DNA of 64,000 bases. Origin: Synergistaceae bacterium (GTDB lineage Bacteria > Synergistota > Synergistia > Synergistales > Aminobacteriaceae). Location of the stretch: the NCBI GenBank assembly GCA_017450125.1, contig JAFSWZ010000010.1:1-64000 (forward strand). Reading direction: 5' to 3'. The notes beneath the pieces are model-generated. The model saw only the letters and a list, made by a program, of their open reading frames with translations. It made no database searches and was not told the origin of the DNA. Shown here piece after piece: positions 29-9,795 of the stretch (its first letter is position 1; each line of letters begins with the position of its first letter). The position numbers were made by a program, and so were the translations under genes.

Positions 29-184
29 CGCCTTTTTGTGCGTCGACACTCCTATCATCACTTCGCTTCACGACTCACACCCCCCTTGACGATTAACGGT
101 ACAGCGCGCTAGTAGTGTGCCTGTGCGTTTGCGCGGGCTTCGGTGAAACATAACGCAAGATTTTCACTGGAGGTATTGTTAATC

Positions 185-3100
185 ATGAAGAAGATATTGT
201 GCGTAATGATGCTTCTGTGTGCGACGGCATCAGGAGCATTCGGAAGCGTCGCCATAACGGCAGGGAATTTCCCTGACAAGATATTCAGGACATACATCAG
301 CAGCACGTTCGACGTAGATTCGGACGGAGTGCTGAGCAGTACGGAGATAGCATCAGCAGATAGTATGTACATCGGCAGTAAGGGCATAACAGACCTGACG
401 GGGATAAAACACTTTACATCCCTGCGTTACCTTTACTGCTCGAACAACGGCCTAATCAATCTTGATTTGAGCGGGTGTACTAACCTAAGAGCTTTGTTAT
501 GTTCCCTCAACAGCCTCACGAACCTTAATGTTACGGGCTGCACTAGGCTCGAAAGAATCTACGGCTGGGCCAACAGCTTGGAGAGCCTCAATGTCAGCAC
601 ATGCACGGCACTCACAAGACTGTCTTGTTCCATGAACAGACTCCCAGAACTTGACGTGAGCAGCAACAGAGCATTAATGTACTTGGATTGCGCCAGAAAC
701 AACCTCAGCGTCCTCAACCTCAGGAACAATGCCGCAATCAAGGAATTAGACTGTGCTTCCAACGGCATTAGTGCTCTCGATCTTTCCAGCAATCTGGCAC
801 TTAAGGAACTCAAATGCTCTAACAATTTCCTTAGGGCTCTTGATCTGAGCCTACACACTGCATTAACCGACGCGGTAGTATCCGTGCAGAACATCAGCGG
901 CCTTAATTCACACGCAAGAGGGGACGGGACATACTACGTTGACCTCGTTAATGACTGCGGCCTGAGCTCCGCGAACCTCAGCAGAATCATCTCCTCGAGC
1001 GTCAAAGGGTACAACACCAAGTCTGCCAACGTACTGACAGACTATGACACTGCTTCAGGGGTTGCTTCGTTCAGCGAAGAGCCCGTGAGGTTCTGCTACG
1101 ACTACGATACAGGTTCAGAGCACGTAATGAGTGTAGCGTTCAACGCTTTCCCGAAAATCACGATGACTGAACTCGTGAGCGGGTATGCGAACAGAAAGTA
1201 TGACTGCAGCCTCGAGGCTTCAGGTACAGGTTCGCTCAGATGGAGCATTGATGACGAGGCGAAACTTCCTGACGGTCTTAATTTCTACGGTACTCTGGGG
1301 AAAATATCCGGCACTCCGAAGGCTGAGGGAAAGTATACGTTCACGCTGACAGTCAGCAATACGCTGGGGAGCGACTCCAAGACGTTCACGCTGGAGATAC
1401 TGTCGCCGTCGTCATCGCCCGAAAGCCCGATAATCACCACAACCAACGCAGATATTCCTACGGGGTACGTGAATACGTCGTACAGCTTTTATCTGAGCGC
1501 ATCCCTGAAATCAGGCATCACATGGAGCATTGATGAGGGAGAAGTTCCGGGATTGACGCTCTCGTCATCAGGCAGGCTTGCGGGAAGACCGTCTCAGTCG
1601 GGCTCGTTCGACATCACGGTGAGTGTTACGGATCGTTACGGCGGGACGGACTCGCAGAAGTTCACGGTTTCGGTTCTTCCGTCGTCGGAGATTGAGGGCG
1701 GGCCTGTGATTCTGACTACGCAGGCAGAGCTTCCGGCGGCGTACGAGAGGACGAAGTACAGCTTCAAGTTCACAGCATCCGGGCAGTACTCTTCCTCGTG
1801 GTCAATAGTGAGCGGAGATATTCCGGGACTTGGGCTGTCGAGTGCTGGTTCTCTCACGGGAACGCCGGAGCGTACGGGAGAGTTTCCGTTCACGGTTCAG
1901 GCCATGATGAGGCAGACAGGAGGGACTGACACGAAGAGTTTTGTGCTCACGGTGAAGGCTGTGGCTGAGACCCCTGAGACACCTGCGCCGTCAAACCCTG
2001 TAACACCTGAGCAGTCAGGAGGGGACAGCGGAGGCGGAGGATGTGATGCTTCGGCTGAAGGAATGCTAGCGGCGGCGGTGTGCTTGCCGGGCTTGCTGGT
2101 GAAGCGGAGGAAGAGGCTGGCGGTTATGCTGGTGGTGTGTCTTGCCGTGATTGAGAACTCAGCGTGGGCAGATGTGGCGATAAATGCTACTAATTTTCCT
2201 GATGAGATATTCAAGAACTACGTTAGCAGTAATTTTGATACGAATAACGACGGAACTCTGAGCGATGCGGAGATAGCGAATATTACGAGTATTTACATGG
2301 GAAGTCTAGGAATTACCTCGTTGAAAGGGATAGAGTACTTCACCGCATTGAGGACACTGAACTTCGGCGGCAACCAGCTGGCGACGCTGGACGTGAGCCA
2401 CAACACCGCCTTGACGTATCTGGTATGCGACAACAACCAGCTGACGACGCTGGACGTGAGCCGCAACACTGCCTTGAGGAGGCTGAACAGCTCTCCACAA
2501 GGGAAGAAAGGACTCATCATCTCCAACACTGGCGACTCATCATATCCCTATCAGCTCGAGTTCAGTAACTACATGAATAGCAGCCAGTTTTCGAATGTCT
2601 CAGGGGTTCAGGGAAGAGACAGCATTAGTTCTAACATCGCCACAACATACGCGGGCGGTATTGCACGTTTCGCTTCACTTCCTGCCTCTGTTAAGTACTC
2701 CTATAACACAGGATACGCTGGTTCTGGCGGCACAATGGACGTAACTATCTCGGGCAATACATCAGACACACCGACTACTCCGACAACGCCGGACACTCCA
2801 GCCCCTAATACTCCTACCACACCAACCACACCCGAATCTTCCCCGCTCTCCAGCCACAAGTACACCGTCTTCGACCTCCCCATGACGTGGACCGAAGCCA
2901 AAGCCTACTGCGAATCTCTCGGCGGACACCTCGCAACAATAACTTCTCAGGAAGAGTTCGACATTGTAGTGAGTCTGCTGTCTGCGGATGAAGACCGTCC
3001 GTACTGGCTAGGGGCATCTGACGCTGAACAGGAAGGTTCGTGGAAATGGGTAACAAGTGAAGACTTCACGTTCACCAAATGGCACACCGGCGAGCCCAAC

Positions 3101-4825
3101 AATCAGGGCGGCGAAGAACACTACCTCATCCTCGCCAAAGACAGCGACAATTCTTGGGGCTGGAACGACGCAACCAACAGCCATAACGGCATCGACCCAT
3201 CTATGTGGTCATTCATCTGCGAGTGGGAGCCGGTAGAGGCCGACTTTGCACCGATGAACTCCGAGTACCTGCGCTACCTCGAAGACCCGGAAGCGTACTT
3301 CGACGGCTCAGAGTTCTACGGCGATACCCCTGACCCTCTGGATCTCTCCCACCTCGCGGACAATCCTCCGAGAGGCACGGTAACCCCAGCGTCAGCCTTC
3401 AAGGCCTCCTCCAAGCATGACCCGCGAACGTCAGGGACTCTCCCGCAGGTCAGGAATCAGACCCCTTACGGCACATGCTGGAGCTTCGCATCACTGGGAG
3501 CTCTCGAGACTAGCTACATTGCTCAGGGCTTCGGCAGCACCGCGCCGGACACCTCAGAGCTTCATCAGGCGTGGTTCGTCTACAAGGACACCAGAGAAGG
3601 CTACTCGTACCCCCTCGACGATAAGAAGAAACCTACACTCGAGCAGGGAGGCAACAGCTCGCAGTCTATAGCCTTCCTCTCGCGCGCAGGCACTGCCTCA
3701 GAAAACGATATGCCCTACAGCCAAGCCGCAAGCATAGAGAACAATCCTCCTTCAAGGCATCCCGAAGATTACCCTAACGCTATCAGGCTCAAAGAGGCCT
3801 ACAACATAGGAGCAGTGAACGCAAACAACAGGGAGGAAATCAAGAGATTAATCCAGCAGTACGGGGCAGTTACTTTTGCCTACGAGCATAAGAAGGGAGA
3901 ACTTGCCGGTGCTTCGTACTACTACAATACCTCAAAGGGTTACGGGCACATGGTCGATGCTGTGGGCTGGGACGATGATTACTCCCGCACCAACTTCAAG
4001 AACACGCCCTCGTCGAACGGCGCGTGGCTTATCCGCAACAGCTGGGGCACAGGCAGCGGAGACGGCGGGTACTTCTGGATGTCCTACGAGCAGACGATAG
4101 GAGACTGTGCGGTGTTCATTGCCGCAAAAGACTCGGGCCTCACGCACAAGGGCTACGATGTCCTGACACAGGCGGGGCGCAACGATTTCCGCTGGTCAGC
4201 AAATGTCTTCAGGGCGGACGGCAAGGAAACCATCAGGGAAATAGCCTTCACCACGACAGACAACAACGTTCCCTACGAGGTCTACATCAACAAGCTGGGG
4301 AAAAACCGTCCTGTTAATCCCGGCGTGCCTAAAGAGAAAGCAGCCTCCGGGATAATGCCTTACGCCGGATACCACACGATTGAGCTGAGCACTTCAGTTG
4401 ATCTTGAGAGCAACGACTATTTTGCTGTGATCCTGAAGTGCGAGAAGGGGTCTGCGTATGACTACACCAGCGCAGTGGAAGACCCCGAAACAGTGAGGGC
4501 CGCCAGCGTTAATGCCGGAGAAAGCTACTTCGCCAAAGCCTCGAGTATTCCCGGAGATGCGGACTGGAAGGACGGAGCAACGATCACTGATGACGGCAAG
4601 GGCAGGCCGTGCAACGCGTGCATCAAGGCATTCACTGTGCCGGAAGGCTACGTAGAACCTCAGCCGACACCCGACACACCTGCCCCGCAGGGCGACGAAG
4701 GCGGCGGCGGAAGCGGAGGCTGCATGACTACTTCCGGCATCGCAGGAATGGCAGCAATCGCGGTCTTGTTCCTGAAAAGCAGGATGCTTTTCACAGCACC
4801 CGGTGTCTGTTTTGTAAAGCGTTAA
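185..4825 (+). CDS. Giant secreted LRR / C-type lectin / papain-like cysteine peptidase with two Synergist-CTERM-type signals
   Basis: 1546 residues from an ATG 11 bases after GGAGG; an in-frame ATG 42 bases upstream lacks a site. Order seen: signal peptide 1-20; EF-hand-like loop DVDSDG near 44; about eight 21-residue leucine-rich repeats to about 250; three putative-Ig (He_PIG-like) domains to about 590; Gly-rich stretch, Cys, hydrophobic segment and basic KRRKR (616-643), a sorting-signal form. A second signal-peptide-like stretch (ending SAWA) follows at once, then another EF-hand-like loop, more repeats, a Pro/Thr linker, a C-type lectin domain (about 890-1015, with WLG, EPNNQGG and WND) and a C1A papain domain with Cys1098, His1255 and Asn1285. 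A second GGGGSGGC tail ends the protein. It looks like two paralogous surface proteins joined in frame. A role in adhesion or protein breakdown outside the cell is inferred. Confidence 0.85.
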   Translation: MKKILCVMMLLCATASGAFGSVAITAGNFPDKIFRTYISSTFDVDSDGVLSSTEIASADSMYIGSKGITDLTGIKHFTSLRYLYCSNNGLINLDLSGCTNLRALLCSLNSLTNLNVTGCTRLERIYGWANSLESLNVSTCTALTRLSCSMNRLPELDVSSNRALMYLDCARNNLSVLNLRNNAAIKELDCASNGISALDLSSNLALKELKCSNNFLRALDLSLHTALTDAVVSVQNISGLNSHARGDGTYYVDLVNDCGLSSANLSRIISSSVKGYNTKSANVLTDYDTASGVASFSEEPVRFCYDYDTGSEHVMSVAFNAFPKITMTELVSGYANRKYDCSLEASGTGSLRWSIDDEAKLPDGLNFYGTLGKISGTPKAEGKYTFTLTVSNTLGSDSKTFTLEILSPSSSPESPIITTTNADIPTGYVNTSYSFYLSASLKSGITWSIDEGEVPGLTLSSSGRLAGRPSQSGSFDITVSVTDRYGGTDSQKFTVSVLPSSEIEGGPVILTTQAELPAAYERTKYSFKFTASGQYSSSWSIVSGDIPGLGLSSAGSLTGTPERTGEFPFTVQAMMRQTGGTDTKSFVLTVKAVAETPETPAPSNPVTPEQSGGDSGGGGCDASAEGMLAAAVCLPGLLVKRRKRLAVMLVVCLAVIENSAWADVAINATNFPDEIFKNYVSSNFDTNNDGTLSDAEIANITSIYMGSLGITSLKGIEYFTALRTLNFGGNQLATLDVSHNTALTYLVCDNNQLTTLDVSRNTALRRLNSSPQGKKGLIISNTGDSSYPYQLEFSNYMNSSQFSNVSGVQGRDSISSNIATTYAGGIARFASLPASVKYSYNTGYAGSGGTMDVTISGNTSDTPTTPTTPDTPAPNTPTTPTTPESSPLSSHKYTVFDLPMTWTEAKAYCESLGGHLATITSQEEFDIVVSLLSADEDRPYWLGASDAEQEGSWKWVTSEDFTFTKWHTGEPNNQGGEEHYLILAKDSDNSWGWNDATNSHNGIDPSMWSFICEWEPVEADFAPMNSEYLRYLEDPEAYFDGSEFYGDTPDPLDLSHLADNPPRGTVTPASAFKASSKHDPRTSGTLPQVRNQTPYGTCWSFASLGALETSYIAQGFGSTAPDTSELHQAWFVYKDTREGYSYPLDDKKKPTLEQGGNSSQSIAFLSRAGTASENDMPYSQAASIENNPPSRHPEDYPNAIRLKEAYNIGAVNANNREEIKRLIQQYGAVTFAYEHKKGELAGASYYYNTSKGYGHMVDAVGWDDDYSRTNFKNTPSSNGAWLIRNSWGTGSGDGGYFWMSYEQTIGDCAVFIAAKDSGLTHKGYDVLTQAGRNDFRWSANVFRADGKETIREIAFTTTDNNVPYEVYINKLGKNRPVNPGVPKEKAASGIMPYAGYHTIELSTSVDLESNDYFAVILKCEKGSAYDYTSAVEDPETVRAASVNAGESYFAKASSIPGDADWKDGATITDDGKGRPCNACIKAFTVPEGYVEPQPTPDTPAPQGDEGGGGSGGCMTTSGIAGMAAIAVLFLKSRMLFTAPGVCFVKR
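2371..2480 (+). repeat. Near-identical 63-bp leucine-rich-repeat units
   Basis: Two successive LRR units in the second half of the large surface protein are almost identical at DNA level: CAACCAGCTG recurs at 2371 and 2434 and the following 30 or so bases differ at only a few positions. The period is 63 bp, or 21 codons, so loss or gain of a unit keeps the frame. The first-half repeats are far more diverged. Confidence 0.7.
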
Positions 4826-8640: not shown

Positions 8641-8656
8641 AGTATAATAATATCAA

Positions 8657-8690
8657 TGCCCTCTTGCTGAAGAAGTAAGGGGGCATTATC
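8657..8690. terminator. Terminator between garD and the GT2 gene
   Basis: TGCCCTCTT pairs with AAGGGGGCA across an 11-base loop, with a TTAT tail on the plus strand. It lies between convergent genes and may act in both directions. Confidence 0.6.
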
Positions 8691-8694
8691 CTGT

Positions 8695-9684
8695 CTACTG
8701 CGTTGTGTCCTTCCTGAAAGCCTTGATGCTCCGCCTTTGCTGATAACGAGCCGCAGAATCCGGGCAGAGTGTCGCAAGAACCATCTTCACCTTCTGCTTG
8801 AGCGGAAGAAACCTGTTCTTCATCGCGAGCGGAAACAGCCTCCTCATCTCAGACTTGGCAGAAAGATACTCCTCCATGTATTCCTTCTTCTGCCCCGCGC
8901 ACACAATGTAGTTCAGCAGGAGAAAATTATTCGCCCATATGTGCCAGTTGAAGGCTTCGGTGATTTCCGGGCTGCTGATCGTCATGCAGTCTCTGATGTA
9001 CAGGATATTCCTAAGAGCGTTCATGCCGTGCCTGACTTCCTTCACTGTACAGCCGCTGTTGGGATTGTTCAGCCTGTAGTTGTAGACGCGCCTGTGTCCC
9101 ACAGCTACGCGTTCGGAATACATCGCAGACATTGTCGAGAAGTACAGCCCCTCACCGAACCACGGCACAGAGAACGACAAATTATGATTGCGTACAATCT
9201 CCATCTTGTAGCACTTGTTCCACGGGCCTACAGGAATAGACTTGTTGATGATTCCCGCTACAGCCTGCTTGTTGTCCCACACTCTGATGAAGTCTTCGTT
9301 GTTCTGGGCTCTGTCCCGAGTCGTGAAGACGCTGTCCGTCATCGACATATCTGCGTTATTATTCTCGAGGATGCCCACGAGGTATTCCACGCAGTCTGGT
9401 TCAAGCCAGTCGTCCCCGTCGGCAAACATAAGGTAATACCCCGACGCGACATCCAGCCCGGCGTTGCGTGCGGAACATGTGCCGCCGTTCTCTTTGTGAA
9501 TCACCCGCACTCTTGCGTCCTTAGCGGAATACTCGTCCGCGATAGCCCCGCTGTTGTCCGGCGAGCCGTCATCGACAAGGATGACCTCTAGGTTGTTGTA
9601 TGTCTGGCTGATGATGGAGTCAATTAACTTTGGCAGGAATGCTTCTGACCTGAACAATGGAACGATGAGAGAGACTTTCTTCAT
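8695..9684 (-). CDS. Family 2 glycosyltransferase
   Basis: 329 residues with a full GT-A domain in the first 220: VSLIVPLFRSEAFL strand, VDDGSPDNSGAIADEY nucleotide-binding loop, GGTCSARNAGLD, and the metal-binding FADGDDW motif. The C-terminal 100 residues are helical and basic. Such enzymes add sugars to surface polysaccharide, lipid-linked glycan or glycoprotein; donor and acceptor cannot be read from sequence. The ATG follows AGGGGGA by about six bases. It is a single-gene unit between two terminators. Its promoter carries an 11-base homopolymer in the spacer, which suggests phase-variable expression. Confidence 0.93.
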   Translation of the reverse strand: MKKVSLIVPLFRSEAFLPKLIDSIISQTYNNLEVILVDDGSPDNSGAIADEYSAKDARVRVIHKENGGTCSARNAGLDVASGYYLMFADGDDWLEPDCVEYLVGILENNNADMSMTDSVFTTRDRAQNNEDFIRVWDNKQAVAGIINKSIPVGPWNKCYKMEIVRNHNLSFSVPWFGEGLYFSTMSAMYSERVAVGHRRVYNYRLNNPNSGCTVKEVRHGMNALRNILYIRDCMTISSPEITEAFNWHIWANNFLLLNYIVCAGQKKEYMEEYLSAKSEMRRLFPLAMKNRFLPLKQKVKMVLATLCPDSAARYQQRRSIKAFRKDTTQ

Positions 9685-9725
9685 TTCGATTCCCCCTGAT
9701 AAACAATGTACTTGACATGTAAGTA

Positions 9726-9756
9726 ATTATACGGTAGGGGGGGGGGGCTTTGTCAA
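9726..9756 (-). promoter_or_regulatory. Sigma-70-type promoter with poly-C spacer driving the GT2 gene
   Basis: On the minus strand a perfect TTGACA (9756-9751) and a perfect TATAAT (9731-9726) are 19 bp apart. The spacer is AAG, eleven C, then TACCG. The optimum spacing is 17 bp, so the present tract would give a weak promoter and nine C a strong one. The predicted start of transcription is near 9719, about 35 bases before the ATG. Spacer-length switching of this type is known at porA and opc of Neisseria. Confidence 0.85.
9737..9747. repeat. G11/C11 homopolymer in promoter spacer
   Basis: Eleven consecutive G on the plus strand, much the longest G/C run I noticed in the window. It lies wholly within the spacer of the promoter of the GT2 gene. 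Confidence 0.95.
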
Positions 9757-9767
9757 GAGAAAAGTAT

Positions 9768-9795
9768 ATCCCCCTTCCGTTCGTTGAAAGGGGAT
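9768..9795 (-). terminator. Terminator after the Sel1-like gene
   Basis: On the minus strand ATCCCCTTT and AAGGGGGAT form a nine-base stem with one mismatch, followed by ATACTTTTCTC. It ends the upstream minus-strand operon immediately before the GT2 promoter, isolating that promoter. Confidence 0.65.

Follow-up and report, generated by a model that had tools for sequence, protein, structure and literature searches.

The window analyzed here is a stretch of 64,000 nucleotides from the 2.16-Mb genome (43 contigs) of a member of the Synergistota related to Fretibacterium. On its minus strand, positions 9756 to 9726 read TTGACA-AAG-C11-TACCG-TATAAT without mismatches, as found by both direct reading and pattern matching; the C-run between AAG and TACCG has the letters CCCCCCCCCCC and lies within a spacer of 19 nt (Table 1). 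The two perfect hexamers, the 19-bp spacer and the eleven C that an earlier note on this DNA had pointed out are all confirmed. The tract is the only run of at least 8 C in the window, and its site is the sole perfect match among the 19-nt-spacer promoter sites found there. Transcription is predicted from the sequence to start at approximately position 9719, 35 nt upstream of the ATG at 9684. The tract itself is located about 52 nt upstream of this ATG and no long ORF runs across it, so it does not have the arrangement of a coding contingency locus.

The downstream gene codes for a GT2 family glycosyltransferase. This assignment and the good ribosome binding site, both proposed in the earlier note, are upheld by the PF00535 match and by AGGGGG 7 nt ahead of the start codon. 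The closest solved structure is that of putative GalT1 (5hea, E 1.5e-28 over residues 4-124). Terminators had been suggested on both sides of the unit. On the upstream side, the 10-bp stem of the hairpin that ends the Sel1-repeat gene is followed by the tail ATACTTTTCT (fold -15.6 kcal/mol, z -3.7), in agreement with the suggestion. On the downstream side a hairpin is also present; it is strong on the plus strand, in the direction of the convergent altronate-hydrolase-like gene (fold -23.3, z -4.3), but modest on the minus strand in the GT2 direction (fold -14.2, z -1.8). Elsewhere in the window, positions 143-4825 encode a 1560-aa protein, probably a surface or secreted protease, in which LRR, Ig-like and C-type lectin domains accompany a papain-like cysteine protease domain.

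Table 1. Features of the poly-C promoter and the GT2 unit (positions in the window)
Feature	Position	Strand	Basis
-35 element TTGACA	9751..9756	-	sequence, 0 mismatches
C11 tract in promoter spacer (AAG-C11-TACCG, 19 nt)	9737..9747	-	sequence
-10 element TATAAT	9726..9731	-	sequence
TACCGTATAATTACTTAC, flank resembling the genus-wide tract motif, contains the -10 element	9719..9736	-	motif comparison
GTCAAG, inverse copy of CTTGAC of the -35 region, 9 nt 3' of the -10 element; possible operator half-site	9711..9716	-	inferred
Ribosome binding site AGGGGG, 7 nt before ATG	9692..9697	-	sequence
GT2 family glycosyltransferase, 329 aa, GT-A domain at residues ~4-128	8695..9684	-	PF00535, E 1.9e-35
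Intrinsic terminator of the upstream Sel1-repeat gene, adjoins the promoter	9768..9795	-	10-bp stem, then T-rich tail
Terminator-like hairpin, bidirectional, separating the GT2 gene from the convergent altronate-hydrolase-like gene	~8655..8687	both	fold

C/G tracts and their flanking motif

A pattern search of the source genome retrieved 36 tracts of at least 8 C or G (37 when one at a contig start is counted). In most cases the tract is within an ORF whose coding strand carries the G, mainly in surface-glycan genes. According to Pfam, the tract-bearing glycan genes comprise GT2, GT4, Caps_synth, EpsG, epimerase, pyruvyl transferases, UDP-glucose dehydrogenase and FkbM methyltransferase; FG-GAP adhesin-like proteins and one HsdS subunit are further members of the set. 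By our count, approximately 32-33 tracts are coding; of these, about 20 break the reading frame of their gene in the assembly at precisely that point and about 12 keep it. Judged from sequence, this set looks like an active phasome. The UDP-glucose dehydrogenase gene, for instance, has an out-of-frame G10 tract in the source genome, G12, G9 and G12 in orthologues, and no tract in one species. In one region (G000:C23:62-65 kb), four tracts approximately 1 kb apart form a cluster of parallel switches, and at least two of them occupy the same C-terminal place in tandem GT2 paralogues. The type I restriction specificity subunit HsdS (L079:2002-3057, PF01420) contains a C13 tract in the 3'-terminal part of its frame, which may point to a phase-variable methylome. 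With up to 55 per genome, tracts of at least 10 C are far commoner in the genus than in the majority of Synergistota outside it, and some genomes outside the genus are also rich in C tracts.

Tracts in the genus share a flank on the C strand, with a consensus of approximately C-run-GTnCGTAnAATTACGTA. Of 35 sites in the source genome, 23 have ACGYA in the 25 nt 3' of the C-run, against 1.7 expected, and one has it on the 5' side. Apart from this, TACGTA is scarcer in the window than expected (2 occurrences vs 5.5). The pattern C8-N2-12-TACGYA was found in 30 of the 43 genus genomes vs about 2 of 145 other genomes of the phylum, and the reversed control was near-empty. The AATTACGTA-like motif is genus-specific; at loci of the source genome it adjoins long C/G tracts in unrelated genes, and it stands beside promoter and coding tracts alike. 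Its reading frame differs among coding genes, which suggests that it either acts at the DNA level or was inherited from the origin of the tracts. In the window, TACCGTATAATTACTTAC resembles this flank and may be a variant that doubles as the -10 element.

Three other properties of the tract regions were considered and dropped. Hairpin formation by the flank was discarded because inverted repeats are just marginally above shuffles. Antisense promoters at coding tracts were rejected as well, since outside the true promoters the -35/-10 scores are no better than those of reversed hexamers. Finally, a single mobile cassette of motif and tract is not obvious: orthologues of UDP-glucose dehydrogenase differ in their flanks within the same loop, and one species has neither.

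Poly-C promoters in the genus

Comparison of the genus, with one genome per species, yielded 16 TTGACA-C7+-TATAAT sites in 11 of 43 genomes and 37 TTGACA-C6+-TANNAT sites in 20 of 43, whereas the reversed-pattern control gave 0 in both cases. The presence of the C11 tract within a perfect promoter is therefore beyond chance. For most of the 37 promoters, an ORF with a ribosome binding site begins 31-49 nt 3' of the -10 element. A second poly-C promoter of the source genome (G000:C34:139859-139891) precedes the gene of a 203-aa secreted-type protein. In sister species, orthologous poly-C promoters keep their hexamers and differ in tract length. One such pair (G010/G053) reads TTGACAAAG-C11/C10-nTTGAAG-TATAATTACCG, in which both TTGACAAAG and TATAATTACCG are unchanged from one genome to the other. 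The gene of a 148-aa protein has the orthologous order terminator-CTTGACA-C10/C13/C11/C13-TAAAAT-RBS-ATG in four species; its product is Gly-rich and probably membrane-inserting.

We consider it about 80% probable that the locus in the window is a transcriptional contingency locus, in which slippage of the C-tract sets the spacer and so GT2 transcription. Slipped-strand mispairing would change the number of C between the -35 and -10 elements within a population (C11 in the assembly), the changed count would alter the fit of sigma-70 RNA polymerase to the two hexamers and hence the level of GT2 transcription, and the level of the enzyme would modify a surface glycan. Across the genus, dozens of poly-G tracts in glycan genes would switch translation and fewer poly-C promoters would switch transcription. 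This reading rests on the architecture of the promoter, its recurrence, the retention of promoters in species that differ in tract length, the constrained total length of the spacer and the frameshifts at coding tracts. GT2, identified by Pfam and with a putative role in surface structure, stands among putatively phase-variable glycan genes. Slippage-driven phase variation of GT2, which the earlier note had proposed, is as an inference well supported by this context: the perfect-hexamer promoter, the tracts in glycan genes and the length change in sister species all speak for a tract-tuned glycosyltransferase, but not for the optimum of 9 C at 17 bp that came with the proposal.

Two observations weigh against it. 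Ordinary sigma-70 should work only weakly with a 19-nt spacer, and no GT2 orthologue with the same promoter was found in the genus, where the best matches are 31-53% identical along part of their length. Contig ends fall no more than 50 bp from 8 of the 185 tracts of five genomes, vs 0.5 expected. These breaks are consistent with mixed tract lengths in the reads, and homopolymer sequencing or assembly artefacts would explain them too. If the locus is such a switch, it most likely adds a transcriptional dial to a surface-glycan phasome that works mainly through translation, and an uncultured lineage with dozens of surface-glycan switches in each genome would then combine promoter-type with coding-type slippage.

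Spacer length and competing readings

The C-runs of the 37 poly-C promoters range from 6 to 15, and their spacers are 19 bp (6 promoters), 20 bp (17), 21 bp (7), 22 bp (2) and 23 bp (2), with one each at 11, 17 and 25 bp and none at 18 bp, forming one symmetric peak at 20 bp. The length of the tract and that of the remaining spacer compensate each other (r = -0.84 for the 37 promoters, r = -0.92 for those with exact TATAAT), and the observed variance of the total spacer was reached in 0 of 20,000 shuffles (p<5e-5). With one representative per family, r was -0.80 and the shuffle result was the same. In these genomes, perfect promoters of the ordinary kind have spacers peaking at 16 and 18 bp, and 20-bp spacers are rare among them. 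It follows that 17 bp, which the earlier note took as ideal, is not what the genus keeps: its C-run promoters stand at 20±1 bp and a single one of 37 at 17 bp.

The spacer optimum of sigma-70 promoters is 17 bp. On this basis, the promoter may instead be ON at 17±1 bp (9-10 C in the window), the assemblies displaying a majority that is OFF or low at 19-21 bp while a minority with 2-3 fewer C expresses GT2; we regard this alternative as a serious one whose probability nevertheless falls short of even. Transcription of tp0126 is highest when its poly-G gives a 17-nt spacer (PMC7864442), and a spacer longer by 2-3 bp, i.e. of 19-20 bp, misplaces the -10 element (PMC9909328). A promoter scan across taxa with a floor of C9 found, among the matches listed, perfect promoters in Clostridia, Mucispirillum, Helicobacter, Treponema and others, with genome-specific spacers of 15-16 or 19-20 bp and rarely 17-18 bp. 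Among the matches listed, 63 of 123 are at 15-16 bp, 34 of 123 at 19-20 bp and 17 of 123 at 17-18 bp, a distribution whose shape is indicative only; also among these matches, the spacers are bimodal genome by genome (p 3.5e-4), and the ordinary promoters in these loci peak at 16-18 bp. The trough at 17-18 bp could mean that assemblies mostly display non-expressing states. However, drift around an OFF state would not give the single symmetric peak at 20 bp or the compensation between tract and flank seen in the genus. Interrupted and hardly slippable C-rich spacers (e.g. CCCCCCTCCC and CCCACCCCCC) are also 19-20 bp long and precede intact signal-peptide genes, which favours 20 bp as the working length. 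On balance, we lean slightly towards a working range near 20 bp (C12 in the window) rather than 17 bp (C9).

A working length near 20 bp could be accounted for if C-run promoters form a distinct class, in which the C-run lets a spacer of about 20 bp work as one of 17 bp through A-like G/C geometry or a factor, slippage tunes expression around 20 bp, and the neighbouring AATTACGTA-type motif keeps the tracts unstable. We offer this account tentatively and, taken as a whole, think it rather unlikely. Under it, the A-like geometry of the C-run would be an unaided analogue of the MerR-type shortening of long spacers.

The tract might also act by altering the distance between CTTGAC at the -35 element and GTCAAG, such that a dimeric regulator binds or does not bind. 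GTCAA is found at exactly +9 after the -10 element in 6 of 36 poly-C promoters, the window included, compared with about 1.1 anywhere within 32 nt in shuffles and with 0 of 14 ordinary promoters, and repeats at nadA/NadR can act via the spacing of regulator sites (PMC2791445). Yet approximately 30 of the 36 poly-C promoters have no GTCAA, three of those that do are paralogues from a single genome, the left arm is nothing other than the -35 element and the control set is small, and we hold such operator phasing to be improbable. Still less probable is a MerR-type promoter, whose long spacer would need a distorting activator and in which the C-run would be incidental. Good hexamers 19-20 bp apart define MerR promoters (PMC9909328), and the window promoter, with its 19 nt, shares this distance; unlike them, however, it has no long palindromic operator within its spacer, which is nearly all C, and ordinary promoters with 20-bp spacers are rare in the genus. 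An artefactual or neutral tract of unreliable length and without regulatory role is the least credible reading, because, error-prone as assemblies are at homopolymers, promoters with tracts are kept in several species, the reversed control is 0 and spacer length is constrained.

Comparison with known systems

A literature search found no description of phase variation in Fretibacterium. Precedents for switching by a homopolymer in the promoter spacer are porA and fetA of Neisseria (PMC2791445) and tp0126 of Treponema pallidum, whose homopolymer lies between the -35 and -10 elements (PMC7864442). Taken as a homopolymer of at least 8 between recognisable -35 and -10 elements, this arrangement includes the C11 promoter, which shares with these systems a G/C homopolymer in a sigma-70 spacer, a single, putatively surface-related gene and expected slippage. 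It differs from them in that both hexamers are perfect, the target is a glycosyltransferase rather than an outer-membrane protein, and the phylum is Synergistota. Furthermore, porA and tp0126 are described as best expressed at 17 nt, whereas the genus class centres on 20 bp; its tight spacer, with compensating tract and flank, conflicts with the 17-bp rule used for known spacer switches. Of the two Neisseria genes to which the earlier note had likened the locus, porA is the closer parallel and opc a loose one. Both opc, for which graded expression is reported, and the window promoter have promoter poly-C, but that of opc encompasses the -35 region (PMC7864442), whereas TTGACA is intact here, 3 nt outside the C11 tract.

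The approximately 33 coding tracts of the source genome, in glycosyltransferases and R-M genes, are similar to the poly-G phasomes of Campylobacter and Helicobacter; unlike in those phasomes, the window tract is promoter-borne and a AATTACGTA-like flank motif is common in the genus. The fim promoters of Bordetella likewise have a C-stretch in the promoter region and require the activator BvgA. In summary, spacer homopolymer switches are known, and this case differs from them in its perfect hexamers, a 20-bp set point with compensation, a genus-wide flank motif and a new phylum.
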